A DNA stretch of 64,000 nucleotides from assembly GCF_900109575.1 (NCBI RefSeq), contig NZ_FOAF01000002.1, positions 496,001 through 560,000 of the forward strand, read 5' to 3'. The position numbers and the translations under genes were made by a program. This document shows positions 1 through 22,851 of the stretch, in pieces. Every line of letters begins with the position of its first letter. Positions within the stretch are counted from its first letter, which is position 1. The notes under the pieces were generated by a model. The model was not told the DNA's origin. It did no database searches and worked only from the letters and a program-made list of their open reading frames with translations. The DNA comes from Olivibacter domesticus (GTDB taxonomy: Bacteria; Bacteroidota; Bacteroidia; Sphingobacteriales; Sphingobacteriaceae).

Positions 1-1643
1 GTGAAGCTGCCTATTTTTCTCGCTGTACTAAGAAAAGATCCAACAGCATTACTTAGCAAATCATACACATCAAGATGCGCTGTTAGGAGAATAATCCAAA
101 TAAACACGGCTACATAGGTTATAATTTTTGAAAAATCTTTCGCAATAGTTTCCCATTCAAAATGATCAGGATAATTTTTTCGCATCCTGCTGCCCTTAAT
201 CTGTAAAAGAAAGGCTTCTATTATCAGCTGTAACAACACAATCAATGAAACAGTATGTAGTAAAGCATATACGCCTGTGGTATAAAATATTTGCATAAGT
301 GTTGTTCGACCGAACAGATTGGCTAATATCGCCAGACCGTTGAATAACATATATAAGGTTCCTGCGATTAATAATATGCTATATTTACCAGCAATAGGTT
401 TTAGTTTCCTTAAGGCAAATACAGCAAAAGCAGTTGAAATTAAATTAATGAACAGTATAAACCAACGCTGCGCATGCGGTGAAATACCAATAAGCCTCAC
501 GAACGATAAAGCAACAAATAAGAGAACGAAAACAGCCCATAGGATTAAGGGTTCTCTAGGGATACGTTTAAAGAACAAACCGGTGAGTACCAAGAGTAGT
601 AAAAACTGGGTCAGTTCAATATAAAGTGCCGGCGCATGTAGATCGAAGACAGGCGCCATTGTAAAGATTAAAACAAGTGATGCCAGTATTGGAACAGGGC
701 TAATTAATTTTAAATCCAAATCCTCCAAAATAGTCATTTTACCTTTATTCTTAAGGCTTCTGAAATTGTAAAAAATCCAGATAAAAAAAAGTGTTCCGAA
801 AAAAAGCAGTAAAACTCTGTTACTCCGAGTATTATTAAAATAGTATTGATTGATTTGCTGTTCACTATCGAGCATTTGGTTGAACTCGGGATATTTTAAA
901 TCAGTAGCCGACGATCTCTTTTCCCAGAGATATCTTTTTTCCTTCAGAAAGGCTTTAGGGCCAATAGATTTTAGCTGCACATTTGTTTGATATAGCAACT
1001 CTTGTACAGACAATGCATTTTCTGCCACATGTGCCCTCAGCTCATTAAGAGTTACCGTTGTACTTTTAATAAGGCTATCAGAGCCCATCCTTTTAATGCG
1101 TAAATCTTTCAGTTGGGTGCTAAAAGAATCGCGTAACGCTTTCGTTGTGAAAATTTGCCGTATAATAGAATCTTTCCGCAGCGCTGCGATTTCTTTTTTC
1201 ATGTCATCCAAGCTTTTATCATAAGATAAAATGACTTCATTATATATATCTTCATTGTCTGTCATTTCATCTAACAACGTGCGAAACATTTGCAAGTTCT
1301 GCAAATTAAAGGTACTTACGTTAAGAGATAATCGCTGTTTTAAAAGATTAATGGTTGAATCGTCCGACTTTAACTTGTTATTTATTTCGGGAATCCGTGT
1401 AAAGGAAGAAGTTACTGTTGGTACCTTATTTAAAGTCTGATAAACTCGTTCCAATCCTTCCAGATAATCACCCGTAGAAAGCATATTGGTATCGGCCAAT
1501 AGCGATTGATCGTATCCAGAACGCCCATTTCTTAGTTTAGATTGTGCATTCACCGAAAATGTTAAGTGAATAAACAATAAAAATAAACAAATGCTATAAG
1601 CTCCCTGGAAGCCCCTATAAGCTATTTGATTGGCTATATTCAT
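1..1643 (-). CDS. MscS-family mechanosensitive channel, N-terminal part (cut by window edge)
   Basis: An open frame runs without a stop from the ATG at 1643 leftwards off the window, 547 codons seen. It begins with a signal peptide (about residues 1-35, ending near NAQS). A polar, helical periplasmic region to about residue 270 follows, with short coiled-coil-like stretches. Then come about eight hydrophobic segments, the first starting near residue 274 (RVLLLFFGTLFFIWIF). The last visible residues (DLLSNAVGSFLSTARKIGSF) resemble the linker just before the MscS pore helix in large Bacteroidota MscS proteins. The pore and cytoplasmic domain lie outside the window. The role would be release of solutes through the inner membrane on hypo-osmotic shock. 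The family call is by resemblance; an open frame with a signal peptide and many membrane helices is directly seen. Confidence 0.8.
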   Translation of the reverse strand, partial: MNIANQIAYRGFQGAYSICLFLLFIHLTFSVNAQSKLRNGRSGYDQSLLADTNMLSTGDYLEGLERVYQTLNKVPTVTSSFTRIPEINNKLKSDDSTINLLKQRLSLNVSTFNLQNLQMFRTLLDEMTDNEDIYNEVILSYDKSLDDMKKEIAALRKDSIIRQIFTTKALRDSFSTQLKDLRIKRMGSDSLIKSTTVTLNELRAHVAENALSVQELLYQTNVQLKSIGPKAFLKEKRYLWEKRSSATDLKYPEFNQMLDSEQQINQYYFNNTRSNRVLLLFFGTLFFIWIFYNFRSLKNKGKMTILEDLDLKLISPVPILASLVLIFTMAPVFDLHAPALYIELTQFLLLLVLTGLFFKRIPREPLILWAVFVLLFVALSFVRLIGISPHAQRWFILFINLISTAFAVFALRKLKPIAGKYSILLIAGTLYMLFNGLAILANLFGRTTLMQIFYTTGVYALLHTVSLIVLLQLIIEAFLLQIKGSRMRKNYPDHFEWETIAKDFSKIITYVAVFIWIILLTAHLDVYDLLSNAVGSFLSTARKIGSF

Positions 1644-1779
1644 ATTTTAAATAGAAGACAATATTACATAACACAAATTTATAATTTATATTATCAACCA
1701 TTTAAAATATTCAACAGTATAGCGTAGCGTCTTTAATCGCTCAGTAAATGACTTACACTCGCTGATTAAAGATGCTTAT

Positions 1780-1871
1780 CCCTGATTAAGACAGACATGC
1801 TTCTACAGCATAAGGTGACATCTTAATCAGGGATTTTATCTTTTGGATTCTATGTAATAAAATCAGTAGTT
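1780..1871. repeat. Hairpin direct repeat, copy A
   Basis: About 92 bp that match 7710-7802 with about five differences. A perfect 12 bp outer stem (CCCTGATTAAGA at 1780-1791, TCTTAATCAGGG at 1821-1832, extendable by two bases in this copy) encloses a smaller stem ATGCT/AGCAT (1797-1801, 1807-1811). Both copies lie just after the 3' end of a minus-strand SusC/SusD unit, as a terminator or mRNA 3'-stabilising element would. However, the T-rich tract follows the stem on the plus strand (1833-1845), which does not fit termination of the minus-strand genes. Confidence 0.8.
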
Positions 1872-1889
1872 TTTTTGGTATCATAGTCT

Positions 1890-1924
1890 CTAACAGCGTT
1901 CTATTAGTACCAAAAAACTACTGA
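1890..1924 (+). pseudogene. Scrap of a second FAD oxidoreductase gene (3' end)
   Basis: Read on the plus strand, these 35 bases match the reverse complement of 7793-7827 at 31 positions. They would encode NSVLLVPKNY-stop, against NSVLFVPKNN-stop at the end of the FAD oxidoreductase gene. Two of the four differences are silent (GTG/GTA, CCC/CCA), which suggests divergence under coding constraint before decay. A shorter inverted copy of the same end lies at 1863-1880, next to hairpin copy A, so the remnant is present in both orientations. The rest of the gene is absent. Confidence 0.6.
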
Positions 1925-2041
1925 AACTTTAAAAAGTTAATGGAACAAAAATCACAATATACAACAATTTTAAGAGCATTTTTTGGTCTTTATAGGTGCA
2001 AAAATGATTCAAACAAAAATGCCCCAATAAGTAGAAAAATA

Positions 2042-2767
2042 CTATTTAATAGTTCCATATTCAATAACACGGTCAACCACATGAATAGGACCGTTTGTAC
2101 TGAGGATACCGGCCGTGCGTGCTTGACTAGCCCTTACTGAATTAAGAAAATCGTTAATTCTAAGTTTAGAGTCCCTGTCATTTCTGACTAAAAGTGTCAT
2201 TATACTCTCCGGATTACTGGCCTCAGCACCCTTAGGCAGAAATGTATTAACAGTCGTATTAAAATCTGTAAGGTTTTCGAAGGAGTACTCTCCCTCAATG
2301 ATAAGGTAAGTCAAAAAGTTCCGCACCTGGTCTACACTGTAATCTTCCCATTTCTCTGCCGATCGCAACACTGGTGATCCATCGACATTTAAAATCGGAT
2401 TTCCCGCGGCATCCCTGCTAATCACTTTGTATCTACCAAAATAACAATCATTGGTAATATCATTATTAGTCTTCCGCAAGACGGCATCATTATGTAGAAA
2501 CAAAAATGTTCTCCCTGCTTTTGTGTATTCTTCCTCAAGGCCTGCGTAAGCTATTCCTTTGAGCATCCAGAAAAACACGCTATCGGCATATACCGCATCT
2601 GAATTTCTCTTTTTCATCCACTCCAATGCATTTATATTAACATGCGGATCGAGTGTTGTGACTTTATGTTCGTGATCTTCTTGCAAGTCTAGTCCAACCA
2701 AACTACATGCACTAATTGACAACATACAGGTTGCAATACAAACGAATAAATATTTTCTCTTTTTCAT
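2042..2767 (-). CDS. FAS1-like (fasciclin-type) lipoprotein of a SusC/SusD unit
   Basis: A 241-residue protein starting at the ATG at 2767. An ATG 14 codons upstream is possible, but the start used gives a clean lipoprotein signal MKKRKYLFVCIATCMLSISAC with the lipobox cysteine at about residue 21. The C-terminal motif GPIHVVDRVIEYG is typical of the end of FAS1 domains, and LNSVRASQARTAGILSTNG fits the strand before it. Such lipoproteins often accompany SusC/SusD pairs in Sphingobacteriaceae and are thought to be surface exposed, possibly helping to bind glycan. It is the last gene of a SusC-SusD-lipoprotein unit, 123 bp after susD. The precise role is unknown. Confidence 0.72.
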   Translation of the reverse strand: MKKRKYLFVCIATCMLSISACSLVGLDLQEDHEHKVTTLDPHVNINALEWMKKRNSDAVYADSVFFWMLKGIAYAGLEEEYTKAGRTFLFLHNDAVLRKTNNDITNDCYFGRYKVISRDAAGNPILNVDGSPVLRSAEKWEDYSVDQVRNFLTYLIIEGEYSFENLTDFNTTVNTFLPKGAEASNPESIMTLLVRNDRDSKLRINDFLNSVRASQARTAGILSTNGPIHVVDRVIEYGTIK

Positions 2768-2890
2768 TAGAATAATTATTGATATATTATTGTTTTTTAA
2801 AAGCATCAATGAGACCGCTTTGCTAAGTCATCTTAAAAGGCAATTGTGCCACATTTCAAATACTGTTCTCATTTAGCCATTTCACCAAGG

Positions 2891-4342
2891 TTATCCGGTA
2901 TAAGGTGGGTTTTGCGTTATTTTCGGATTTCTATTCATCACTTCTCTGGAAATGGGAAATAACATCAACCGCTCGTCGGAAAATCCTGTTTCCTGCAATA
3001 GTAAATTTCGCTGCCGCTTTTTAATAATAGGATCCATGATTTTAATTACATTTTTTGTTCGAACTAAGTCAAACCATCTTTTCCCTTCGCCGAAAAGCTC
3101 TAATTGACGTTCATTAAGGATAGCGCGTTCTATATCTTCCTGTTCAGGATAATTTTCCATTCTTAGAGCGGTGGTTTTAGCTCTAGTTCTTACTTGATTG
3201 ATCAGCAGGAAGGCCCCTTGTTTGTCGTTTAATTTATTCAATGCCTCTGCTCTCATTAGCAAAATATCGGCATATCTATATAAAGGCAATTTCGCTTCAT
3301 TCGCATTATTATTTGGATAAATCGGTCTTCCATCTGCTCCCAATGCATAGAATTTACCTATTTTATCTAAACCTGTACTCGTTTGAAGCAATAGCGTATC
3401 GTAAGTATATTGTCTTCTAATATCTGCTTTGTTAGCTTCAAATAATTCGAAAGCGACGCTATCCATTCTATATTGAGATGTATTACTTCCTGAACCTATT
3501 TTAGAAATACCATTTGACCCATTCTGTGAAACATTCCAATGTAAGCTCCAAATGTTCTCTTTGATGCTTGTAGTGCCAGGATCAGTAAATAATTTCTTCC
3601 AATCCGAAGCGGGCGCAAGTCCATATGTATTTAATGTTATAATTTTATCAGTAGTAGCCACCGCTTCCTGATAATTGCCATTCCACAAATAAACGTCTGT
3701 CATTATTGCCAAAACACCGCCTATATTGATTTCCCAAACGGGCTCTATTATCGCTTTATCAATCAGCTCCTCTGCTTTTTTTAAATCCGGAATAATGACC
3801 TCATTCATAATTAGACTGGCAGACGTCCGCTCAATAGTTGGATCTTCACCTATATCCTCGTAGGGTTCTAATTTTAAAGGAACGTCTCCCCAGAGTCTAA
3901 TGGCATAAAAATACATATACGCCCGAATAGCATAAGCTTGAGCCAAATAGTGATTTTTTTGATTTTCGCTTAAGTCGGTAATAGTGGGCAGGTATTTTAT
4001 TGAACTATTAGCTCGTCCAATAGTCAGGTAAATGTTATCCCAATTCACTAATCCCATAGTCGGCTCTAAAGCATTTAGTGTCACCGTTAGCTGAAATTCT
4101 CCTGTCCCGCTATAGGTAAAATTATCTGAGCGTGCCTCGCCCCAATCAATATAGTTTCCATTAAGTGTACGTTGTACTCCATTATAAATGGCAGCATTTG
4201 CCAGTTTTGCGTCTTCTGCGCTTTTCCAGAACAGCTCCTTCGTTAAATCAGAAATTGGTTGTTGCTCAAGAAATTTGCTACAGCTTGAACAAAGAGTTAA
4301 GAAAAGAAATAAGCAGCTATATATTAAGTGTTTCGTGTTCAT
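2891..4342 (-). CDS. SusD/RagB-family nutrient-binding lipoprotein
   Basis: Surface lipoprotein that forms the lid of a SusC transporter and binds oligosaccharide or another nutrient. The start at 4342 gives MNTKHLIYSCLFLFLTLC followed by a cysteine lipobox (SSC) and lies four bases after the SusC stop; a longer start would overlap susC. Family signs are SKFLEQQPISDLTKELFWKSAEDA near the N-terminus, the TPR-like helices with AYAIRAYMYFYAIRLWGDVPL, and the C-terminal block with LPLYRYADILLMRAEALN and ERQLELFGEGKRWFDLVR. The length of 483 residues is usual. It is the second gene of the 7427-2042 unit. Confidence 0.95.
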   Translation of the reverse strand: MNTKHLIYSCLFLFLTLCSSCSKFLEQQPISDLTKELFWKSAEDAKLANAAIYNGVQRTLNGNYIDWGEARSDNFTYSGTGEFQLTVTLNALEPTMGLVNWDNIYLTIGRANSSIKYLPTITDLSENQKNHYLAQAYAIRAYMYFYAIRLWGDVPLKLEPYEDIGEDPTIERTSASLIMNEVIIPDLKKAEELIDKAIIEPVWEINIGGVLAIMTDVYLWNGNYQEAVATTDKIITLNTYGLAPASDWKKLFTDPGTTSIKENIWSLHWNVSQNGSNGISKIGSGSNTSQYRMDSVAFELFEANKADIRRQYTYDTLLLQTSTGLDKIGKFYALGADGRPIYPNNNANEAKLPLYRYADILLMRAEALNKLNDKQGAFLLINQVRTRAKTTALRMENYPEQEDIERAILNERQLELFGEGKRWFDLVRTKNVIKIMDPIIKKRQRNLLLQETGFSDERLMLFPISREVMNRNPKITQNPPYTG

Positions 4343-4346
4343 AATG

Positions 4347-7300
4347 TTAAAAGTTGATGTTAATACCAAAACCCATTTCCCTTTTGCGAGGGTAACGTCC
4401 ATTATCCAATCCCATTTCTAACGCATTATTAAATGCTACTTCCGGATCGTACCAAGAATAGTCGGTCCATGTTAAAAGATTATTACCAAAAAAGTAAATA
4501 CCGACCTGCTGAAGTTTTATCTTCCGTATCCATTCGGTGGATAAATTATACGTTAATCTCAAATTTCTTAAACGGATAAAAGAGGCGTCTTCCAGAAACA
4601 TGCTGCTCAATTCACGGGCATTTCCCATGCTATTATTAGCAGGTCTATACCAAGTGGCCACATCTCCCTGTTTCGCCCATGCTCCGTGGATATAACCTGG
4701 GTCTGGAGTTGCGTTGGTAGTTGCAATGGTTGCTCCTTGTTGCCTTGCTCTGTTATAAATCATGCCACCGTAGCCTCCATAAAGATTGAAGGATAGCTGA
4801 ATGTTCTTATATGAAATATTATGAGCAAAACCTGCCGTCCATTTGGGCTGCGCGTTTCCTAAAATCATCCGGTCCGCATCATCTATACTACCATCTCCGT
4901 TCAGATCTTTCCAGATTACATCTCCACCGTTCGATGTATTTCCACGAGTAGTTAGCTGTCTTACTTCTCCGGTGTAAGGTGTTCCGTTTAAAGCATATCC
5001 AGTAAAATCACCCGTGTTATCGAAGACAGGAGTAAGTTGATCTCCCTTTTCTGACCAAGCGTTAGATTCGTCATACTGATAAATACCTAGGGCCTGCCAT
5101 CCATAAAAATTACCTAGGCGCCCTCCTTCCTCTACGAGCCAAACACCATCTCCTGGCCCTCTACTAATCGGCACACCATCACTCAATTTTCTTACAGTAT
5201 TGTTATTAAACGTCATATTGTAGGAAACATCCCATTTCCAGTTCTTATTTTGAACAATTAAGCCATTAATAATAAATTCAAAACCTCTGTTCTGTATGGA
5301 GCCGACATTAACTCTAACGGTGTTAAATCCTGTTTCGACAGGTAAAGGTGCATTGTATAATAGGTCGTCGGTTATTTTATTATACCAGTCTGCTACGATA
5401 GACATTCGGCCGTCAAAAAAAGACAAATCTGCCCCTAGATTAAATTGTTTTGTAGATTCCCAGCTCAACGTGCTATTTCCAAATGCACTGGAAGGAGCAA
5501 CTCCAGATATCCCATTATAGAAATTACCTCCTTCATACCTTTGCAAAGCCATGTATTCTGGAATACGATCATTACCTGTTAAACCATAACTAATTCGGAT
5601 TTTCGCGTCATCTACCCATTTCTTCGTAAACTTCATAAATGACTCATCGGAAAATCTCCATCCCGCTGATATTGAAGGGAAAAAACCCCAACGATTATCA
5701 GCTCCGAAGCGAGAAGAGCCGTCATAACGCAGGTTGCTATTAATTAAATATCTTCCTTTATAAGAATAACCTAGTCGTCCAAAGACGGAAGCCGAAGAAT
5801 TTCGCCATCCATCAGTATAAATTTGATTCTGTAACAACTCCTGTGCGGAATTCATGGTAGTTACTTCTTCCGAAAGAAACATCCTTCCTCCGATGCTTGC
5901 CCCTTCATAATATTGCTGATCTGCCATAAATCCTAAAACAGCATTTATTGTATGATCATTAAAGGATTGATCATAGTTAAAATAACTTTGCGTTTGCCAA
6001 TATGTTCGGAAATTGTTCTGCGCACGCCCTTCATTTTGATCATTGGAATTACTAAGTAATTTTGGCACAAAAGAGTCTTGGCTATTGTAGGTACCACGTG
6101 CGTTTAAGTCGACGGTAAATTTTAGCGCATCGAAAATCTGATAAGAAAGATAATTATAAATGCTGGCATCGTAATTAGCATATTCATTTTTTCTTAATAG
6201 CGCCTCCGCTAGGGGATTTCTCCTTCCACCAATATTTGGAGCCAGCGTACCATCTGGCATATATACCCTAAATGTTGGTGGCCGTTGAATAGCTTGATTC
6301 AACGTGTTCCCTTCATTAATTCTATTTTCCTCACTATAAGAAAGCTGCACGCGGGTGCCCATTGAAAAACGATCATTAGCCCTATAATCCATATTGAATC
6401 GTCCTCTAATAATATTTGCCCAGCTATTGATAATGATACCTTGATCACGTAAATAACCTGCACTACCATAATAACTCAGCGCTTTATTTGCTCCACTAAC
6501 ACTTAAGTCGATCTGGTTACGTACAGCTGTTCGAGTAAGCAGGTCTTGCATATCATTGTCGGCATTATAAGAGGGATTTAGCGAGTCGGCTTGAGAACTC
6601 CAATTTCCCGTTCGCTTAAAATCAAACAGACGCCTTTCCGCTGCATTTGCTTGTGGAATTTTATTAGCCAACTCACTAAAGCTCTGCAAATACCTGGCGC
6701 TGATCTGTGGTTGCCCCTCTTTTCCTTTTTTTGTTGTTATAATAATAACTCCGTTGGCCGATCGTGCACCATATATAGCCGCGGAAGCGGCGTCTCTCAG
6801 CACTTCGATAGATGCTATGTCGGCAGGATTAATCCCATCTATATTAACTCCTTGTGCCCCATCAACGATATAAAGAGGTTCTGCTCCGCCTTCAAAAGTA
6901 GCGATGCCTCTTATTCTCACAGAACTACCTGCTCCTGGGCGACCAGATTCCTGTGCTATTTGTAATCCAGGAACCTGCCCCTGCATGGCATCGTATACAT
7001 CCAATGGTTGACGTTCAATAATTGCTTTTTCTGTTACAGAAGAAATTGCTCCAGTTACATCTCTCTTCTTTTGCGTACCATAACCTATAACCACTACCTC
7101 ATCCATCTGCGATACATCAAATGCTAGTATCACGTCAATTTGTTGACGGTTATTAACAGCTATTTCCTGCGAAGACGTACCAACTTGACTAAATACTAAT
7201 ACAGCATTATCGGCAGCTTCAATCTGATAGTGACCTTGATTATCGGATAGCGCGACTTGCGTGCTACCTTTTACCGAAATAGTTACACCGGGAGCTATAT

Positions 7301-7427
7301 TTCGATCCGACAGGGTTATTTTGCCTGTAATCTTTCTTTTTGTTTGCGCGTGAGTAGGTAGCGATCCCCAGCATAAAAACAATAAAAAAGCCATCAATGG
7401 CCATTTTAATGGATAAATAAGTTTCAT
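4347..7427 (-). CDS. SusC/RagA-family TonB-dependent outer-membrane transporter
   Basis: A 1026-residue TonB-dependent beta-barrel that imports a SusD-captured substrate. It has a signal peptide ending THAQ (about residue 28), a carboxypeptidase-regulatory-like beta-sandwich (about 32-110), then DEVVVIGYGTQKKRDVTGAI, the usual SusC linker and TonB-box region. A plug follows with VRIRGIATFEGG and YGARSANGVIIITTKKG, then a barrel ending in FGININF with the terminal aromatic residue typical of outer-membrane proteins. It has no STN domain, unlike the SusC at 11532-14816, so it is probably not a sigma-signalling transducer. First gene of the minus-strand unit running to 2042. Confidence 0.96.
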   Translation of the reverse strand: MKLIYPLKWPLMAFLLFLCWGSLPTHAQTKRKITGKITLSDRNIAPGVTISVKGSTQVALSDNQGHYQIEAADNAVLVFSQVGTSSQEIAVNNRQQIDVILAFDVSQMDEVVVIGYGTQKKRDVTGAISSVTEKAIIERQPLDVYDAMQGQVPGLQIAQESGRPGAGSSVRIRGIATFEGGAEPLYIVDGAQGVNIDGINPADIASIEVLRDAASAAIYGARSANGVIIITTKKGKEGQPQISARYLQSFSELANKIPQANAAERRLFDFKRTGNWSSQADSLNPSYNADNDMQDLLTRTAVRNQIDLSVSGANKALSYYGSAGYLRDQGIIINSWANIIRGRFNMDYRANDRFSMGTRVQLSYSEENRINEGNTLNQAIQRPPTFRVYMPDGTLAPNIGGRRNPLAEALLRKNEYANYDASIYNYLSYQIFDALKFTVDLNARGTYNSQDSFVPKLLSNSNDQNEGRAQNNFRTYWQTQSYFNYDQSFNDHTINAVLGFMADQQYYEGASIGGRMFLSEEVTTMNSAQELLQNQIYTDGWRNSSASVFGRLGYSYKGRYLINSNLRYDGSSRFGADNRWGFFPSISAGWRFSDESFMKFTKKWVDDAKIRISYGLTGNDRIPEYMALQRYEGGNFYNGISGVAPSSAFGNSTLSWESTKQFNLGADLSFFDGRMSIVADWYNKITDDLLYNAPLPVETGFNTVRVNVGSIQNRGFEFIINGLIVQNKNWKWDVSYNMTFNNNTVRKLSDGVPISRGPGDGVWLVEEGGRLGNFYGWQALGIYQYDESNAWSEKGDQLTPVFDNTGDFTGYALNGTPYTGEVRQLTTRGNTSNGGDVIWKDLNGDGSIDDADRMILGNAQPKWTAGFAHNISYKNIQLSFNLYGGYGGMIYNRARQQGATIATTNATPDPGYIHGAWAKQGDVATWYRPANNSMGNARELSSMFLEDASFIRLRNLRLTYNLSTEWIRKIKLQQVGIYFFGNNLLTWTDYSWYDPEVAFNNALEMGLDNGRYPRKREMGFGININF

Positions 7428-7792
7428 GTAAATGAGTTTATATGGTTAGCAATAACAGAGGTATCGATATTGTGATATGGATACTTCTATAGGTTTATTG
7501 CCTCAAATGTCTCAACTAAATTTGGTAATGGAGGGGAAATATTTGACCAAATGCAGGGTAAAAAATGGTTTTTCTTAGTAAAGACTATTTTTATTTATAA
7601 AAAGAGAAAGTTGAATAGATGGCAGTGCCTGAGAACAAACAGAAAAAAGTTCTTACAAATTCACTCTGTCGGGCCAATAATAATTGGTCATATCTAGAAC
7701 GAAAACTTACCCTGATTAAGACAGACATGCTTCTACAGCATAAGGTGATATCTTAATCAGGGATTTTATCTTTTGGATTCCATGCAATGAAA
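7428..7792. other. Intergenic region upstream of the SusC gene
   Basis: This 365 bp gap lies between the FAD oxidoreductase stop and the SusC start, both minus strand. It holds hairpin copy B at its right end and should contain the promoter of the 7427-2042 unit. I could not assign a convincing Bacteroidota promoter on the minus strand. A short inverted repeat CCAAT-AATA-ATTGG lies near 7674-7688. Confidence 0.5.
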
Positions 7793-7802
7793 TCAGTTGT
7801 TT
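7710..7802. repeat. Hairpin direct repeat, copy B
   Basis: Partner of 1780-1871. The outer stem CCCTGATTAAGA / TCTTAATCAGGG and inner stem ATGCT/AGCAT are kept exactly; the differences lie in the loop (gacat/gatat) and in the flank toward the oxidoreductase stop codon. The repeat abuts and slightly overlaps the 3' end of the FAD oxidoreductase gene (7793-7802), so the repeated unit includes both the gene end and the hairpin downstream of it. Confidence 0.8.
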
Positions 7803-9790
7803 TTGGGCACAAATAGAACGCTGTTAGCGGCTATAATGCCATTTGCATCTTCATTACTAAGTTCTACATAGCACTTTTTTTCATCGACAATTACAAAATT
7901 GCCCAGTTTAAGCCAATCTCCTGAAGTTTGGCCCTCTATTTTAACGGCTGTTAAGTCAATTGCCTTTTTTATTTCTTGTTTCCCATCGTGAATCTTATAA
8001 GTAACATGCGTGCTTGATCCGTCCAATTTTGGAAAATAGGTATAGATATCATAATTCCCCCGCTCTATACTGCCTGGTCTAAACTGGGCTGTGCTCAGTT
8101 TTTTATTATCCGGTGCGATCAAATAGGCAGATCCATAACCTCCTCTTTGTTCTTCTTGCCAACTACCGGATAGAATGACCTGTTGTTTATTTCTACTATC
8201 AATCCATACATCTACTTTTCTACCATCTCCTTTTGGATTATTTTCCCAAAGTGTTTTTATTCCCGCTAAAGGAACGTCTTGTACAGCTGATTTGGAATCA
8301 ATGGCCAGGCAAGCCGCGAAAGCAGCTGATTGTCCCAATACCATAAAAACAGGTTCCATACGAATAGAACCATAAGCGATATGACTAGCCGATAAACAAA
8401 CCGGAACTAGCAGATTAGAGACCTCATTTCTTTTAGGAATAATGGAACGATAGGAAATTGGAAATGGAGGAAACCCTCCCACCTCCACATTTCCTTCGTT
8501 TTTCACCATACCATTCACCACGAGTCGATCACAATTATGAGAATCCATGGTATATGCCGCATAGCCTACGTCATCTTTTATGACTTCTTTACCTTGACAA
8601 TGATTTTGTGTCATCACCAGTTCACCGATCATCCGCCGGGCCTCTCTGATATACAGTTGTGGGCTCCAATTTTCATTATCGGTATATTCATCCCTTGGAT
8701 AACCCCATTTCAACATCTCCTTTCTGACCTTTTCAGGTACGGAAGGATCATGACCCACAAAGTATAATAGTCCTTTTGTATAATCTTCATGCGCTTGAAT
8801 GATTTCCTTTCGTCGTTTGTAATCGGCTTCTGGATAGTCCCAATTCATGCCAATCATATCTGTTGAGAAGCCATTTCTGTTATTGATATCCGTTTTTCCA
8901 TTAGGCATCCGACTCCAGATAAACACATCATTCAACCCTTTCCAGGGATATTTTTCCTTCCATCTCTTCAGCAGTTCGTAGCGAGTAGGATCATAATTAG
9001 CTGGCTTGTTAATAGGAATACTATTTTCGGGTACATTGCTTAAACAAATTCGGAAATTGTAAGCCTGGACCTTTCGATCACCTGTGCCGTTTGACTGCAA
9101 CTCTTTAGGACTTATACCCCACAATAATCCACTGTTTTTATTTCCCTTCTCAATATAGGGATCAATATTATCAGGGAATTGATGCCCATCCATTAACTGG
9201 ATACCATTAATGGTTTCTCCGTAAGTGGCATTATCTTCTCTGCCTACGTGATAAGAAACTCCGGCTTTTGCCATTAAATCGCCCTCATAGGAACAATCGA
9301 TAAACATTTTAGCATTAATGGAAACCACGTTCTCTAAAGATTTACCAAGGGGAAGCACTTCAATTGCCTTAATAATAGCGTCTTTTTTATTTACCTTACT
9401 AAGCGTATGCTCATAAAGAACTTTTACTTGAGCGGCCTGTATATAACTTTGAAAAATACTGTCTGCCACTTTTGGTTCAAAGATCCACTGTTCAAACTTA
9501 TCATAGTGCTGCCCAATCTTTCTGTAAAAGTCCAACGCTAAACCTTTCACCACATATTTATTCCCAATATCCGTATATCCCAGGCCTCCTGAACTCATTC
9601 CACCCAAGCGCTTTCCAGGTTCTACCAGTAGTACGGATTTGCCAGCCTTGGCAGCTGTATAAGCTGCTATTACGCCGGCTGAGGTACCGCCATAGATGCA
9701 GATGTCATAATTATTCTTATCCTGTGCCCGCAATTCAACCTTAATTAAAACCAAGACTACTAGACAGAAAAATTTTATATTTTTTATCAT
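7793..9790 (-). CDS. Secreted FAD-dependent oxidoreductase (FAD_oxidored / xanthan-lyase-associated type)
   Basis: A 665-residue protein with a signal peptide (about 1-22, ending ELRAQ). A Rossmann FAD-binding start follows: DICIYGGTSAGVIAAYTAAK with GxxxxG spacing, the acidic end of strand two at VLLVEPG, then GGMSSGGLGYTDIGN. MFIDCSYEGDLMAKAGVSYHVGRE is characteristic of the FAD-dependent oxidoreductases found next to SusC/SusD pairs, some fused to xanthan-lyase-type domains. The last 130 residues look like a beta-rich accessory domain. It follows susD by 20 bp, so it is probably the enzyme of that utilisation unit, acting in the periplasm or outside the cell on an unknown substrate. Confidence 0.88.
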   Translation of the reverse strand: MIKNIKFFCLVVLVLIKVELRAQDKNNYDICIYGGTSAGVIAAYTAAKAGKSVLLVEPGKRLGGMSSGGLGYTDIGNKYVVKGLALDFYRKIGQHYDKFEQWIFEPKVADSIFQSYIQAAQVKVLYEHTLSKVNKKDAIIKAIEVLPLGKSLENVVSINAKMFIDCSYEGDLMAKAGVSYHVGREDNATYGETINGIQLMDGHQFPDNIDPYIEKGNKNSGLLWGISPKELQSNGTGDRKVQAYNFRICLSNVPENSIPINKPANYDPTRYELLKRWKEKYPWKGLNDVFIWSRMPNGKTDINNRNGFSTDMIGMNWDYPEADYKRRKEIIQAHEDYTKGLLYFVGHDPSVPEKVRKEMLKWGYPRDEYTDNENWSPQLYIREARRMIGELVMTQNHCQGKEVIKDDVGYAAYTMDSHNCDRLVVNGMVKNEGNVEVGGFPPFPISYRSIIPKRNEVSNLLVPVCLSASHIAYGSIRMEPVFMVLGQSAAFAACLAIDSKSAVQDVPLAGIKTLWENNPKGDGRKVDVWIDSRNKQQVILSGSWQEEQRGGYGSAYLIAPDNKKLSTAQFRPGSIERGNYDIYTYFPKLDGSSTHVTYKIHDGKQEIKKAIDLTAVKIEGQTSGDWLKLGNFVIVDEKKCYVELSNEDANGIIAANSVLFVPKNN

Positions 9791-9810: not shown

Positions 9811-11271
9811 TTAATAACCAGGATTTTGGTCGCTCGGGCTCAAGGCATTGTTATTGTCCATCTCCACTTTAGGAATAGGCCATAAAAAATGACTGTCACT
9901 TACTGTTTTCCCTTTCGCCGATTGGATAATCGATCGCACGCCATCGCTACCCAAACGTTTTAGATCGTTCCACCGTTTGCCTTCTACCATAAACTCATAA
10001 GCCCGTTCTTGCATAACAGCATCACGAAAAGATTGCTGGTTTAATCCTGCCCAATCGACTTGCGGATTAGACGTATTAACGTCAACCCCATAAGCACGCC
10101 GCCTAATTTTATTCAAGGCATCGTAAGCTTCTGGAGAGGGCCCTCCTTCTAATTGGTTGGCCGCCTCTGCGTAAATCAACAATACATCGGCATAACGAAG
10201 CACCGGCATATCATTAGCACTGGCATCAACAGCTACCGACGCTAAATCTTTAAATTTTCTAAATTGATAAGGTTCATTGGCTGGAAGCTGAACAAGTGCG
10301 CCTGTTGATCGATGGATATAGGAATCGTAAAGATTAAATTCTTTTCGTAAATCGTTATCCGACCAATTGGCAATTAAAGGAAAAGTTTCCCGCGCATAAA
10401 TGGTACGGAAGCCAAAGGGGGCATAGAGTGTGTTTTCTCCGTGTATATATACCAAATATTGAAAACCAAGACCACCCAAAGATGAATATTTAAAGGAAAA
10501 AACATCTTCCGTGCTTGTTACCACACCTGCTCCAAAAACTTGCTCGAAATCATTGACAGTAGAAACAGGCACCAATTGATAAACTCCTGCATCCATTACC
10601 TCCTTTGCTGTATCTCGTGCCTGCTCCCAATTCTCCATTGTTAGATACACATAAGCTAACAACGTCTTTGCTGTCCATAAACTAGGTCGTCCGGGAATTG
10701 ATACCGTAGGTGGTAAATCGGTACTTGCAATGGTTAAATCAGAAATAATTAAATTATATACCTCCGCGTCAGTACCTCTAGGCAAATCTGCAGGGTCATT
10801 TAGCGACTGTCTTATAGGTACACCACCCCAATTTCTAACTAAATCAAAATAGGCCAAAGCCCTAAGAAACCGAGCTTCCGCCAATAACTGGCTTTTCTTA
10901 TTATCATCCATACTGATGGGTGGTACTCGTTCCAACACCGTATTCGCCCTTAAAATAGCTTGATAAGCAAACCTCCAAATAGTTTCGGCACGACCGATAT
11001 TGGCACCATCAAGCCCGTTATACTCACTTACTGGGCCAAACGAACCTCTGCCATTAGCGTAGTCCGAACAGGATTCCGTTAATAACATATAAAAACCTCC
11101 GTAATAACCTAATTCCCTAAACGGTGCATAGATAGCATTTACGGCTGTTTCGGCATCTTGGGCTGTTTGATAAAAATTTTCCTCCGATAGCCGATCTTTT
11201 GGAACTTCCTCCAAGGTTTTACTGCAAGCAGTAAATAAAATGATCGAAAATATATATATAAGCTTTTTCAT
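9811..11271 (-). CDS. SusD/RagB-family nutrient-binding lipoprotein
   Basis: Partner lipoprotein of the SusC at 11532-14816. The signal MKKLIYIFSIILFTAC ends in a lipobox cysteine at residue 16, followed by SKTLEEVPKDRLSEENFYQTAQD, a standard SusD opening. The TPR-like part carries ARFLRALAYFDLVRNWGGVPI, and the C-terminus has MPVLRYADVLLIYAEAANQ and ERAYEFMVEGKRWNDLKRLG. The length of 486 residues is typical. It is separated from its susC by an unusually long 260 bp gap containing a partial duplication of its own leader, and is followed after 20 bp by the FAD oxidoreductase gene. Confidence 0.95.
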   Translation of the reverse strand: MKKLIYIFSIILFTACSKTLEEVPKDRLSEENFYQTAQDAETAVNAIYAPFRELGYYGGFYMLLTESCSDYANGRGSFGPVSEYNGLDGANIGRAETIWRFAYQAILRANTVLERVPPISMDDNKKSQLLAEARFLRALAYFDLVRNWGGVPIRQSLNDPADLPRGTDAEVYNLIISDLTIASTDLPPTVSIPGRPSLWTAKTLLAYVYLTMENWEQARDTAKEVMDAGVYQLVPVSTVNDFEQVFGAGVVTSTEDVFSFKYSSLGGLGFQYLVYIHGENTLYAPFGFRTIYARETFPLIANWSDNDLRKEFNLYDSYIHRSTGALVQLPANEPYQFRKFKDLASVAVDASANDMPVLRYADVLLIYAEAANQLEGGPSPEAYDALNKIRRRAYGVDVNTSNPQVDWAGLNQQSFRDAVMQERAYEFMVEGKRWNDLKRLGSDGVRSIIQSAKGKTVSDSHFLWPIPKVEMDNNNALSPSDQNPGY

Positions 11272-11531: not shown

Positions 11532-14500
11532 TCAAAATGTAGCACTTACTCCAATTGTAAAAGTTTTGGCTACAGGATAACTGGTTTGATCAATCCCCAA
11601 TGTAGTGGCCGAACCACTGGTGCGTGTACTTACTTCGGGATCGTACCAAGAATAATCAGTAATGGTTAGGAGATTTTGGCCGCTCACGTACAATTGCAAG
11701 GTTTTAATCTTCGTACTTTTGGCCATAGGAATGCTGTAACCAAGTCGGATATTTTTTAAACGGATAAACGAACCATCTTCTACAAAACGGTCAGATTCTC
11801 GAAAACTGGACCCAACACTAATAGCTGGGTAAGGTGCATTGGAATTAGCATTCTCAGGTGTCCATCTATTTAATATGTCCGCAATCTGGTTCTCCCCGAA
11901 ATTAAAGGAATTTGCTTGATTCGATAAATTAAAATTAAATAGATCTGCACCCTGCACACCTTGGATAAATATATTCAGTGAAAAATTCTTATAGCTCAGA
12001 TTATTATTAAATCCGAAAATAAAATCCGGGTTAGGGTTACCTAAAATGGTCCGATCCTCATTATTAATTACACCATTTCCATCGAGATCTCGATATTGTA
12101 TACGTCCCTGTTCATTCAAACCATCTTCCAAAAATCCGTAGAATACACCCACCGGTTGTCCTTCACGAACTAAATTCGGACTGATGCTCAGTGGAATAAG
12201 TAATGATGCACCAAAGACATCAGAATGGTTGGCCAACTCAATTACCTTGTTTCGATTGGCTGAAAAATTCACGGAAGCGTCCCATTTAAATACGCCGCGT
12301 GAAATATCGGCGCCTAAGTCAAATTCAAAACCGCTGTTTCGAATTCGACCGATATTTTGCATCTGATTTTGGTAACCCGTTGAAGTTGCCTGCGGAACGC
12401 TCGCTAATAAATCTCTTGTATTCTTGATATAGTAGTCTGCCGTCAAACGCAAGCGTTCATTAAATAACCCCAAATCAAAACCAATATTGGTCTGCGTAGT
12501 GGTTTCCCATTTCAAATCAGGATTGGGACGTGTATTACCTGGTGCAAAACCGGTATTCAAGGCATCACCAAGGATAATATTAAAGCCAGAGAGAACATTT
12601 AAGGATCCATATGGCGATATGGCTGTATTCCCCGATTGCCCCCAACTGGCCCTGAGTTTTAAATTAGAGATACTCGCAATATCCTTCAAAAATTCTTCTT
12701 CTTTTAGCCGCCAGCCAAAGGCCGCTGAAGGAAAATAACCCCATTGGCTACTCGTTCCAAAACGAGAGGAGCCGTCGGCCCGTATACTCGCTGTTAACAG
12801 ATATCTGTTTTTATAACTATAGTTTGCTCTAAATAACCCTGAAATCAGCTTCCATTCATTGATAGTTGATTCAGGCGTGCCAATTACCGTTCCGGAAGAA
12901 AGATTATTGTTCTGCAATACATCGGAGATAAAGCCACTGGCACCTGATATGTTTGTAGAGGTATTTTCTGACTGATAGGTTACCCCGGCAGTTAAATCAA
13001 GCTGATGGACGTCGAAGGACTTCGTATAAGTTAGAATATTTTCATTAAGAAAGTTGGTTCGTGTATCGTATCGTGTTTCTGCATTTCCCGCTGGTGTAGA
13101 ACGAATAAGCCGCGAAGAATAATAATCTCTTTTTGAATTAGCATAATCAATACCAGCAGATACTTTCAATGTTAAACCTTCGAAAAAAGTATACTGTAAA
13201 CCAAGGTTTGCTAATACACCGCTACCAGTGGTTTTGTTTAACCGTTCCTTTGCTAAGGCTACGGGATTCTCCGCAGCATTGGAACTAAAGGAATAAGGTA
13301 CTACATTAGAATAATTTCCGTTTTCATCGTAAACAGGTATTGTTGGAGGAGCAGCTAAAGCAGCAGATACCACGCCCGAACCTCTTGATTGATTATCATT
13401 TGTAATAGCATTATTGATGGTGCGACTCAATATTGTGCTCAGATTCACTTTAAACTTGTCTGATACCTGTTGCTCCAGGTTAGAACGTAAAGAACCTCTT
13501 TTGTAACCCGAGTTTATTACGATACCATCTTGTCCAAAATAACTTCCTGAAACAGAATAACGCGTTTTATCATTTCCACCGGCAATATTTAAACTATGGT
13601 TCTGAATGGGAGCTGTACGAAAAATCGCATCTTGCCAATCAGTTCCTTCACCGAAATCATTGATCTGTTCTTGGGTAAAATAGGCTGGCGCATTGTCATT
13701 GCGAGCCCGTTCGTTCGCTATTTCGGCAAACTGTTGGGCATTTAAGAGGTCTATTGTTTTTACCACATTCTGGAATCCCACATAACTGTTGATGGAAACC
13801 TGATTCACATCTTTCTTTCCACTTTTGGTAGTGATGATCACTACACCATTCGCTCCGCGCGAACCATATATAGCCGTTGCGGAAGCGTCCTTCAATACTT
13901 CCATTGATTCGATATCCGAAGGATCAAGAATAGTGGGACTACCCGATAGCGCAAAACCATCTACAACATAAAGCGGCTCATTACTTCCCAGCAAAGAATT
14001 CCCTCCTCTTATACGTACGTTCATGCTTGTACCCGGTGCACCTGACCCTTGTATCACTTGGACGCCAGCACTCCTGCCTGTTAAACTTTGCATGGCATTA
14101 GTAGAAGGTAAAGCGGTTATATCTTCCGATTTTACCGAAGAAACAGAACCAGTTAGGTCCCCTTTACGAACCGTTCCATACCCCACCACAACGACTTCAT
14201 CCAAAGCGGCTTCTTGGGGCATCATACTAACGTTAATCGCTGCCTGCCCCGAAACATTTATTTTCTGACTAGCGTATCCCGTATAAGAAAAAACGATTAC
14301 TGCATCATGTAGCACCTTTAATTCATAATTCCCTTGATTGTTGGTAGATGTTCCCCTTAATGGAGATCCTTTTACAGTTACTGAAACACCTATTAAGGGC
14401 TGCTGCTTTTCATCTACAACTTTTCCCCGCAATGTTTGTTGCACCTGTTGATTTGATAAATTAATGGTTTTCTGTCGCTCTAGCACAATCACCTTATTTC

Positions 14501-14816
14501 TCCTAATCTCATAGGCAATATTTTTATTCCTTAGCAGATATTCCAAGGCCTCCTCTAGTGAAGCGTCTTTAAAATTTACTGCTACTCGCTCTTTATCATT
14601 CAACAGCTCATTACTATAAAATACCGTAAGGCCCGTTTGCTTTTTTATAATACCAAAGAGCTCGCTAAGTGTAATACTTTCACCTTTTACTGTTAGCTTA
14701 TATTGCGCTAATAGAGGATTGGCATAAAGTTCAAACTGAAAAAGTAGAAAAAAGGCAATAAATACCTTAGAAAAATGCAGATAATAGATTCTGCGATTGG
14801 TTCGTTTTCTTTGCAT
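11532..14816 (-). CDS. SusC-family TonB-dependent transporter with N-terminal STN signalling domain
   Basis: A 1094-residue outer-membrane transporter. After a signal peptide (to about residue 38) comes an STN domain (about 40-110: YKLTVKGESITLSELFGIIK, YSNELLNDKERVAVNF, EALEYLLRNKNIAYEI). Next are a carboxypeptidase-like domain (RGKVVDEKQQPLIGVSVTVKG), DEVVVVGYGTVRKGDLTGSV, a plug with VRIRGGNSLLGSNEPLYVVDG, and a barrel ending FTIGVSATF. The STN domain normally touches a FecR-type anti-sigma factor; the gene directly upstream encodes FecR, preceded by an ECF sigma factor. This suggests substrate import turns on its own operon by trans-envelope signalling. Confidence 0.96.
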   Translation of the reverse strand: MQRKRTNRRIYYLHFSKVFIAFFLLFQFELYANPLLAQYKLTVKGESITLSELFGIIKKQTGLTVFYSNELLNDKERVAVNFKDASLEEALEYLLRNKNIAYEIRRNKVIVLERQKTINLSNQQVQQTLRGKVVDEKQQPLIGVSVTVKGSPLRGTSTNNQGNYELKVLHDAVIVFSYTGYASQKINVSGQAAINVSMMPQEAALDEVVVVGYGTVRKGDLTGSVSSVKSEDITALPSTNAMQSLTGRSAGVQVIQGSGAPGTSMNVRIRGGNSLLGSNEPLYVVDGFALSGSPTILDPSDIESMEVLKDASATAIYGSRGANGVVIITTKSGKKDVNQVSINSYVGFQNVVKTIDLLNAQQFAEIANERARNDNAPAYFTQEQINDFGEGTDWQDAIFRTAPIQNHSLNIAGGNDKTRYSVSGSYFGQDGIVINSGYKRGSLRSNLEQQVSDKFKVNLSTILSRTINNAITNDNQSRGSGVVSAALAAPPTIPVYDENGNYSNVVPYSFSSNAAENPVALAKERLNKTTGSGVLANLGLQYTFFEGLTLKVSAGIDYANSKRDYYSSRLIRSTPAGNAETRYDTRTNFLNENILTYTKSFDVHQLDLTAGVTYQSENTSTNISGASGFISDVLQNNNLSSGTVIGTPESTINEWKLISGLFRANYSYKNRYLLTASIRADGSSRFGTSSQWGYFPSAAFGWRLKEEEFLKDIASISNLKLRASWGQSGNTAISPYGSLNVLSGFNIILGDALNTGFAPGNTRPNPDLKWETTTQTNIGFDLGLFNERLRLTADYYIKNTRDLLASVPQATSTGYQNQMQNIGRIRNSGFEFDLGADISRGVFKWDASVNFSANRNKVIELANHSDVFGASLLIPLSISPNLVREGQPVGVFYGFLEDGLNEQGRIQYRDLDGNGVINNEDRTILGNPNPDFIFGFNNNLSYKNFSLNIFIQGVQGADLFNFNLSNQANSFNFGENQIADILNRWTPENANSNAPYPAISVGSSFRESDRFVEDGSFIRLKNIRLGYSIPMAKSTKIKTLQLYVSGQNLLTITDYSWYDPEVSTRTSGSATTLGIDQTSYPVAKTFTIGVSATF

Positions 14817-14902: not shown

Positions 14903-16054
14903 TTACCAAAGGTGTAAACCGTCTTGGCGAAGTTGGTAATGGATGCCAGTCGTTGTTTGCAGATCTTTTAAGAAGCCATCTAAATCTTTCTTGTCAAGCA
15001 ATCCGGTAATTGGTTTCTTTTTCAAGTTATTGTTATCAAAAATGACTGCAACATCAAACCAACGGTGCATGATCTTACCTATTTCCTGTAGCGAAGTATG
15101 ACGAAAATAATATAGTCCATCTTTCCATGCGATTATTTCGTTTATATCGAAAGATTCTTTCAAAAAGCCATTTAATGGATTATATATACCCTTATTTCCA
15201 GGGGAAAGCAACATAACTTCACCCGTTGGCGCTTCCATTTTTACCTTTCCCTCTAAAAGAGCGGTGCTTACATCTTCATTTCCATAAGCATTTAGGTTAA
15301 ACTTTGTACCCAGCACATGCACCTTGGCCTTTGCCGTGTGTACCACAAATGGCGCTTGCACATTTTGAGCTATTTCAAAATAAGCCTCTCCCTCCAAATA
15401 TACTTTTCTTGATGGGCCAGAAAAAGTCATCGGAAATTTCAGTTGAGAGGAAGAATTGAGCCAAACTTTCGTTCCGTCTGCTAGCACAAGTTTATAATCT
15501 TTAGTGGCCGGAACAATAAGTGTATTTGTTTTCTCTGATCTATCGGAATTACTATAAATCAGGGCATCGCCTTCTTTCTTAATGGTATTACCGGCTATTT
15601 CTATAGCATCATTTTTCTGATCTAAATGCAGTACCTTTTCATTATCGCCTACGATTAATTGTATCGCTATGTCTCCCTTCTTCCCCGTTGTTGATAGCAT
15701 GTCATCTACTTTCGATAGGTTGTTATCGACTGAATCTTGAACTAAATAGCCATAAAAGAAACCTCCTCCAACCAATATTAGAAAAACAGCTGCAGCATAA
15801 GGAAACCATTGCCTTCGTTGGCTATCATGATCGGATTCCTTTAATTGTTGCTTTACCCTGGAAAGATCGTCCCCCACTTCCAGCTTATCTGTAAAAGCGA
15901 TGAGATTGCTTTCTTCCTTTTCCAATTCTTCCCAAAGTTTACGACCTTCAGGATATTGTAATAGCTGCTCTTGCAACCACTTATTTTCTTCTTTAGTGAT
16001 TACACCCATTGTTTTCTCTAGGTAGAGCCTGCGTATGTCTTCCTCTGTTATCAT
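14903..16054 (-). CDS. FecR-family anti-sigma factor
   Basis: A 383-residue single-pass inner-membrane regulator. The cytoplasmic N-terminus (about 1-80; MITEEDIRRLYLEKTMGVITKEE) should bind the sigma factor. One membrane helix follows at about 85-105 (WFPYAAAVFLILVGGGFFYGYL). The periplasmic FecR domain carries LADGTKVWLNSSSQLKFP, VYLEGEAYFEIAQ and VHVLGTKFNLNAYG, and a DUF4974-like C-terminal domain (about 300-383) interacts with the STN domain of the transporter. It sits 39 bp after the sigma gene and 86 bp before the STN-SusC gene, a classic cell-surface signalling arrangement. Confidence 0.95.
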   Translation of the reverse strand: MITEEDIRRLYLEKTMGVITKEENKWLQEQLLQYPEGRKLWEELEKEESNLIAFTDKLEVGDDLSRVKQQLKESDHDSQRRQWFPYAAAVFLILVGGGFFYGYLVQDSVDNNLSKVDDMLSTTGKKGDIAIQLIVGDNEKVLHLDQKNDAIEIAGNTIKKEGDALIYSNSDRSEKTNTLIVPATKDYKLVLADGTKVWLNSSSQLKFPMTFSGPSRKVYLEGEAYFEIAQNVQAPFVVHTAKAKVHVLGTKFNLNAYGNEDVSTALLEGKVKMEAPTGEVMLLSPGNKGIYNPLNGFLKESFDINEIIAWKDGLYYFRHTSLQEIGKIMHRWFDVAVIFDNNNLKKKPITGLLDKKDLDGFLKDLQTTTGIHYQLRQDGLHLW

Positions 16055-16093
16055 TTTTACTATTACACGGATAACCTGAATTCAGGTTAATAC

Positions 16094-16636
16094 TTATTCC
16101 CTCTTTTTTATTTTGTCACGAAGATTTTTCAATCCGATTTTTAAATGTGTCTTTAAGGAGTTAATACTTATTCCCATCGCATTTGCAACATCCTGATATT
16201 TTTTATCTTCCAGATAAACAAGACTGATAGCTTCTCTTCTTTGTTTGGGTAATCTATCCAAATTGGTTTCCAATCTTTTATAGACTTGTTCCCTCAGTTC
16301 GTGATCTGCTACGTAATCTGTTTCTCGTATATGTTCCTCATAGTCAACTTCACGGCGTAATTTCGTTTCATTATTTCTGAGATAATTTAGGCACCTATTA
16401 TGTACAGACTTGTATAGATAGCTTTTTACATTTCCTTCTAAATATTCAAAACGTCTTTTCTCCCAAATTTCTATGAATAGATTTTGGACAATATCCTTGG
16501 CATTCTCTTCGTCCTTAAGAAATAGGAAGGCGTAACCGCAAAGCAGTTTATAGTATTTATGAAACAGTGCATCAAATGCTATTATGTTCCGGCTATTTAT
16601 TCCGGCAAGCAGTTGCGCGTCAGTTTTTGCTTCCAT
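16094..16636 (-). CDS. ECF RNA polymerase sigma factor (sigma-70 family, Bacteroidota FecI-like)
   Basis: A 180-residue sigma factor. Region 2 is DALFHKYYKLLCGYAFLFLK with the following NAKDIVQNLFIEIWEK. Region 4 is LPKQRREAISLVYLEDKKYQ and the helix-turn-helix VANAMGISINSLKTHLKIGL. It is the first gene of the minus-strand unit and should direct transcription of the downstream SusC, SusD and oxidoreductase genes once the FecR protein releases it. The 366 bp upstream gap is shared with the divergent SusC gene at 17003. Confidence 0.95.
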   Translation of the reverse strand: MEAKTDAQLLAGINSRNIIAFDALFHKYYKLLCGYAFLFLKDEENAKDIVQNLFIEIWEKRRFEYLEGNVKSYLYKSVHNRCLNYLRNNETKLRREVDYEEHIRETDYVADHELREQVYKRLETNLDRLPKQRREAISLVYLEDKKYQDVANAMGISINSLKTHLKIGLKNLRDKIKKRE

Positions 16637-21578: not shown

Positions 21579-22835
21579 ATGCAAGTACAAAAAACAGAAA
21601 CGATCGACCTTAATGGCAATAAAAAGAGCGCTTTTGGTCACATTAAAAATTGGTTTCTTTCTTTAGGTCCTGGTATCATTACAGCAGCATTGGTTTTTGG
21701 TCCCAGTAAAATGACCATTACTTCAAAGCTCGGTGCAGATTATGGCTTTCAGTTAATTTGGATTATCGTCATCGCCATTTTTTTTATGGTACTATTCACC
21801 AATATGGGTGCCCGAATTGGTCAAGTAGCGGATCAGTCGCTATTGAGCTTAATTCGTAACAAATGGGGTAAAGGATCTGCTATTATCATTGGTTTAGGAA
21901 TATTTTTTGTCGCCACCTCCTTCCAAGCAGGAAATGCAATAGGGGTTGGTATCTCAATTGCCGAAATAAGGGGTAGTTCTCCTACTGGGTGGATTATTCT
22001 TTTTAATGTTATTGGGGTTTTATTATTATTCTTTCATGGTTTTTATAAAATATTGGAAAAACTTATGATTGCCTTAGTCGCCTTAATGCTTTTTGCATTT
22101 ACTACTACCTTAATTTTTATTAGTCCTTCAGCTACCGACATTATCGAGGGCTTTATCCCCGCGGTTCCAACCGGCTCTTTAGGACTTGTGATAGCGTTTT
22201 TTGCTTCCTGTTTCTCTATCGTGGGTGCGTTTTATCAATCGTATCTGGTACAGGAAAGAAAGAAAAGCAATCCATTAAAAGCAGCGGATAAAAGTGGGAG
22301 TATTACTGGGATCATCATGCTGGGTATCATGAGCGCCATGGTGATGATATGTGCTGCAGCTGTTTTAAACAAACAAGGACTACAGGTAACCAATGCATCT
22401 GACATGGCAAAAGCACTAGAACCCTTATTTGGTAAATATTCTTCTACCCTATTCCTACTGGGTCTTTTTGGAGCATCTTTCTCATCGCTGATAGGAAATG
22501 CTACTGTAGGGGGAACATTACTGGGAGACGCTTTTGGGTTTAGTTATCAGCTCGATTCTAAGCCTGTTCGCTGTTTTATTGCCTTAGTTATGGTATTTGG
22601 AAGCATCATCGCGATAACTTTCGGTAAGCTTCCCCTAGAACTTATTGTGCTCGCACAAAGTGTCACCATATTTCTGGTTCCGTTTATTGGTATAGCAATG
22701 TACGCTATTTCCAATGACCCAAAAATAATGGGTGGGCGAGTAAACAGTAAAAGTATGAAAGTATTTGGAGCAATAGGTTTACTTATACTTGGCCTATTAG
22801 CTGTTAGCAATGCGAATGAATTATTTTTTCAATAA
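21579..22835 (+). CDS. Nramp-family-related inner-membrane transporter lacking the canonical metal site
   Basis: A 418-residue membrane protein with about eleven hydrophobic segments. The segment LGPGIITAALVFGPSKMTIT (about 29-48) aligns with the first helix of Nramp divalent-metal transporters, which normally carries DPGN; here positions 41-44 read GPSK. The sixth-helix region (about 203-225, CFSIVGAFYQSYLVQE) lacks the usual M-P-H that also binds metal. The fold is therefore Nramp-like, but binding of Mn or Fe at the known site seems unlikely. Between SusCD and catabolic enzymes, it may import an organic substrate or a different ion; that is inference. Confidence 0.85.
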   Translation: MQVQKTETIDLNGNKKSAFGHIKNWFLSLGPGIITAALVFGPSKMTITSKLGADYGFQLIWIIVIAIFFMVLFTNMGARIGQVADQSLLSLIRNKWGKGSAIIIGLGIFFVATSFQAGNAIGVGISIAEIRGSSPTGWIILFNVIGVLLLFFHGFYKILEKLMIALVALMLFAFTTTLIFISPSATDIIEGFIPAVPTGSLGLVIAFFASCFSIVGAFYQSYLVQERKKSNPLKAADKSGSITGIIMLGIMSAMVMICAAAVLNKQGLQVTNASDMAKALEPLFGKYSSTLFLLGLFGASFSSLIGNATVGGTLLGDAFGFSYQLDSKPVRCFIALVMVFGSIIAITFGKLPLELIVLAQSVTIFLVPFIGIAMYAISNDPKIMGGRVNSKSMKVFGAIGLLILGLLAVSNANELFFQ

Positions 22836-22851
22836 ATTAACTTAATCAATA

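Follow-up and report, generated by a model that had tools for sequence, protein, structure and literature searches.

SusC/SusD pairs are the nutrient-uptake pairs of Bacteroidota, and two units of this kind lie in the window, the stretch of 64,000 nucleotides of Olivibacter domesticus DNA (contig NZ_FOAF01000002.1) analysed here. Both carry SusC and SusD genes with full Pfam domains. Unit B also includes ECF sigma factor and FecR anti-sigma factor genes, and unit A adds a fasciclin-domain lipoprotein as third gene and has no sigma factor of its own adjoining it; none of this is unusual.

Two described processes resemble what is seen at the ends of unit A. The first is insertion between long direct repeats, by integration of a circle or at a staggered break, in which a foreign unit comes to have flanking sequence on both sides. 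The present locus shares this arrangement, and in a related species the junction is uninterrupted. Unlike such insertions, its repeats have diverged by about 5% (a hairpin block) and 16% (the tail of a gene), the far copy is partly inverted and no mover gene is present. The second is the fold-back template switch that generates quasi-palindrome mutations, reported from microbes and from other genomes (PMC8794818, PMC7202029); template switching is an established source of mutations that create reverse-complement hairpins (PMC8794818). The likeness here consists of a reverse-complement copy beside its source and a short inverted match at the switch. Unlike the described cases, the copy lies at a rearrangement junction within a gene remnant, and its ancestral sequence is a reconstruction.

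We consider it probable that a SusC-SusD-fasciclin unit was inserted, in one lineage, just behind the oxidoreductase gene (Ox) that closes unit B, and that this duplicated the Ox tail together with the hairpin block. The event appears to have been an ordinary lineage-specific genome rearrangement, rather than the decay of a second, matched enzyme unit.

Organisation of the two units

On the minus strand, unit B runs from 16636 to 7793 in the order ECF sigma, FecR, SusC, SusD and Ox, followed by the right hairpin copy. The FecR anti-sigma and ECF sigma factor genes (14903-16636; PF04773/PF16344 and PF04542/PF08281) precede a SusC that Pfam finds to carry an STN domain (11532-14816) and a SusD homologue (9811-11271). 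Ox (7793-9790) is intact and encodes a 665-residue FAD-dependent oxidoreductase (PF12831, E 2e-111) with a Golvesin C-terminal domain (PF25275, E 2e-16).

Unit A, on the same strand from 7427 to 2042, consists of a SusC/TonB-dependent receptor without an STN domain (4347-7427; PF07715, PF00593 and PF13715), a SusD homologue (2891-4342; PF07980, E 8e-35, and PF14322) and the fasciclin-domain lipoprotein gene (2042-2809), whose PF02469 match (E 2.7e-4) is just under the curated cut-off. A receptor with plug and barrel domains is thus followed by a SusD lipoprotein, as in a SusC/SusD uptake unit. Next come a palindromic scrap, the left hairpin copy and a membrane-protein gene (3-1643, minus strand) which has no Pfam match and runs off the window; its open frame in the genome is 794 aa. 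The segment interpreted as inserted (1925-7709, minus strand) comprises unit A, its promoter side and its 3' flank, and holds no transposase, integrase or other mover gene. Base composition was ruled out as a sign of foreign origin of unit A: its GC content (0.38-0.41) and GC3 (0.33-0.36) are the same as those of unit B.

The sequence-only reading had taken these to be two related units, each ending with an oxidoreductase and a hairpin, one of which lost the enzyme and suffered a small inversion. The Ox tail and hairpin common to the ends of both units would agree with this. However, SusC and SusD of unit A show identities of only about 31% and 28% to the unit B types (unit A queries against the unit B orthologues of the congener G001), against 95% for the hairpins, so that units A and B are not duplicates. 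Moreover, relatives of unit A never end with Ox, and the scrap parted from Ox after the divergence of O. domesticus and G001, far later than the SusC/SusD pairs diverged from each other. Derivation of both units from one is therefore very improbable, and the claim of two related units, each closed by an oxidoreductase, was not upheld.

The hairpin block

The pair of hairpins reported behind the two SusC/SusD units is real, with blocks of 83 nt bounded at 1780-1862 (left) and 7710-7792 (right, directly downstream of intact Ox), identical at 79 of 83 positions with four differences. The stem is perfect in both copies, with 14 bp in the left (1778-1791/1821-1834) and 12 bp in the right, and 29 nt separate the arms in each. 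RNA folding gives z values of -3.3 to -5.2, and the fold is stable on both strands. The T-rich tail is found on the plus strand, the neighbouring genes being on the minus strand, and a simple terminator scan did not detect the block. The hairpin behind Ox may be a transcription terminator or a stabiliser of the mRNA 3' end, copied along with the Ox tail. A further inverted repeat (AGCGTCTTTAATC/GATTAAAGATGCT, with 25 nt between its arms) adjoins the left hairpin at 1726-1776 and has a TTAATC motif in common with the left stem.

A search of the whole 6.78-Mb genome returned exactly two copies of the block, and 398 other genomes sampled from the family gave no match (E <= 1e-4). It was found neither with the relatives of unit A nor at other loci of the genus; hairpin and Ox tail are confined to the two ends of unit A. 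With two copies only, a dispersed repeat of the REP or IS type, which would have told against the sequence-only reading, is ruled out, and a plasmid origin of the repeat was likewise rejected, the plasmid collection having yielded no match. The same distribution bears on another interpretation, according to which the hairpin block would be the folded single-strand target of an integrase, a recombination site at which SusCD units are inserted behind others, and removed again, as cassettes, the 83-bp direct repeats being the two cassette ends. A gene unit is indeed bracketed by structured direct repeats, which would remove unit A if they recombined with each other. In spite of this, the paucity of copies, the lack of an integrase in the insert and the inclusion of Ox coding sequence in the duplication, which a defined site would not need, make a recombination site scarcely credible.

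The Ox-tail scrap and its palindrome

A scrap on the plus strand corresponds to an inverted copy of the Ox 3' end, as had been noticed, and is longer than was claimed, extending over 1876-1924. It aligns without gaps to 7841-7793 on the minus strand, with 41 of 49 positions identical (84%; E about 1e-9) and a score of 25, against at most 10 in 300 shuffles. It reads GIIVSNSVLLVPKNY-stop, where Ox ends in GIIAANSVLFVPKNN-stop. The description of its changes as silent was half right, since it holds for four of the eight differences and the other four change the amino acid. Three of these four fall on positions conserved in most relatives, the scrap deviating at three positions from the AAN.VLFVP tail kept by most homologues, as would be expected of a non-functional copy free of selection. 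The identification of the scrap as the 3' end of a gene for a Golvesin-tailed FAD oxidoreductase, with the hairpin belonging to that gene end, is supported. A different source, the second, shorter oxidoreductase found behind Ox in the genomes G003, G004 and G031, was ruled out by its C-terminus, which is unlike the scrap.

The reported inversion at 1863-1880 was likewise confirmed, and a local inverted rearrangement is supported. This 18-nt stretch, which reads TACCAAAAAAACTACTGA on the minus strand, is what remains, in the original orientation, of the duplicated Ox 3' end, and touches the left hairpin exactly as the Ox stop codon (7793-7795) touches the right one. Together with the scrap it makes up a palindrome, the arms of which lie at 1863-1886 and 1901-1924, with one extra T in the direct arm. 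Both arms carry identical scrap-specific bases (TAC, CCA), which indicates that the scrap itself, rather than Ox, was the local source of the inverted piece. After the TGGTA that closes the direct arm, the sequence runs on as the reverse complement of the arm and of the next 27 nt. At the distant end of this stretch stands TACCA, with which TGGTA can pair, a 5-nt inverted match at the joint. A reverse-complement copy of adjacent sequence is thus associated with inverted microhomology at the switch point, and the palindrome fits the form expected of a fold-back template switch. Its position is exactly that of the junction with unit A, so that it may belong to the insertion event. A search of Rfam with 1855-1932 gave only sub-threshold matches to two microRNA precursor families; these were taken as chance, such as any long inverted repeat can produce, and a known RNA family was discarded.

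The tail also allows a history in which Ox and hairpin were first duplicated in tandem in the O. domesticus lineage, and unit A subsequently took the place of almost the entire second Ox, of which the tail survived. A second oxidoreductase gene would then have existed, though as a duplicate next to unit B instead of a component of unit A. Such a history would account for a tail abutting the hairpin exactly as in the intact gene, and for four silent differences and five third-position differences among the eight, as a formerly coding copy would show. The tail is, moreover, more diverged than the hairpin (8/49 against 4/83; Fisher p = 0.055). However, one extra event is required, and comparison with Ox reveals no further Ox sequence at either junction of unit A (1925-2041 and 7428-7709). 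The excess at third positions is not significant with eight differences, and the silent changes may equally lie on the branch of intact Ox: G001 and G003 have the same CCA codon as the scrap, so that this change most likely occurred on the Ox branch and the four silent differences cannot be assigned to that of the scrap. An earlier period of the scrap copy as a working gene is possible, and duplication in tandem before the arrival of unit A is on the whole unlikely. Since the tail does not by itself tell the length of the copied stretch, a full second Ox, deleted later, is kept as a reading that we regard as rather doubtful; it too would be a copy of the flank and not part of the inserted unit.

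The junction in related species

Unit B is kept in G001 (SusC 83%, SusD 88% and again beside Ox, Ox 74%), and its gene order, regulators included, is conserved in G001, G003 and G004; Ox is 69% identical in G003 and 66% in G004. In G001, a different species of the same genus from which the empty site is deduced, Ox (L072 8926-10917) directly neighbours the membrane gene (7194-8834). The latter is 74% identical to its homologue in the window, and 98 bp separate it from the Ox match. Where the intergenic region begins, it can still be aligned to window 1600-1691. The junction is uninterrupted, the segment containing unit A being absent between the two genes. The short gap behind Ox in G001 has no hairpin, which was thus either gained in the O. 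domesticus lineage or lost in G001.

In G003 and G004 the membrane gene was not found (E <= 1e-30), and the gene behind Ox is the second, shorter oxidoreductase. This succession, a Golvesin-tailed oxidoreductase followed by a shorter FAD oxidoreductase that is about 50% identical and has no Golvesin domain, occurs in G003, G004 and G031 and at a paralogous locus of the source genome on contig C3 (L073 7832-11535, L074 7175-10867, L075 7381-12482 and L078 9304-12934). The gene behind Ox is accordingly variable within the genus.

The duplication can be dated relative to the split from G001. Over 13 comparable codons, the scrap shares 32 of 39 bases and 8 of 13 third positions with Ox of its own genome, against 25 of 39 and 2 of 13 with Ox of G001; the two Ox genes themselves share 27 of 39 and 2 of 13. 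The duplication therefore took place after O. domesticus and G001 had separated, a dating that rests on few sites.

Relatives of unit A

Relatives of unit A are found outside the genus. No homologue of the fasciclin gene was detected in the four other genomes of the genus (E <= 1e-5), where the best homologue of the unit A SusD reaches 37%. In other genera, a SusC-SusD-fasciclin module in fixed order, with 34-61% identity, is present at all 19 loci checked, which represent 18 genomes, L081 and L104 being the same stretch of Parapedobacter composti; the fasciclin gene follows SusC/SusD in every related locus examined. At none of the 19 was an Ox match seen within about 7 kb. The uninterrupted junction in G001, the fixed module free of Ox and the low identity between units indicate that unit A was inserted behind Ox rather than derived from unit B by divergence, and that the second tail is most likely a duplication of the flank at the arrival of unit A.

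In Parapedobacter composti, about 5 kb past the module, there are homologues (59% and 68%) of an Nramp-like transporter gene and the gene next to it. In the source window this pair is part of another cluster, about 14 kb away from unit A (21579-23868 in the window; 20431-22639 in L081). The unit A and Nramp-like transporter clusters may serve one pathway.

A proposed course of events

The ancestral order, still present in G001, would have been sigma/anti-sigma, SusC, SusD, Ox and membrane gene. After the split from G001, the SusC-SusD-fasciclin unit would have entered the short gap behind Ox, so that the insert came to be flanked on either side by the last 49 nt or more of Ox and the hairpin block, a direct repeat of at least 132 bp. 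We infer that insertion and duplication were one event. Direct repeats at both ends with no mover inside would be compatible both with a circle integrated by homologous recombination and with insertion into a staggered break. The greater divergence of the tail might point to unequal histories of tail and hairpin and is counted against the insertion model. As a flank copy produced by insertion, the far tail would never, or only briefly, have been part of a functional gene. At its unit A side, a fold-back template switch, or some other inverted duplication of like effect, may have occurred, the TGGTA/TACCA match priming the switch and the tail being copied in reverse to give the palindrome at 1863-1924.

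The locus offers a dated example of the growth of SusCD loci, in which a SusC-SusD-fasciclin module, already complete, is inserted behind another unit and leaves a duplicated flank and a small palindrome. The broader value of the case is small. It illustrates that a scrap of a gene next to a repeat does not necessarily testify to the loss of a gene and may instead be a copy made at a boundary.
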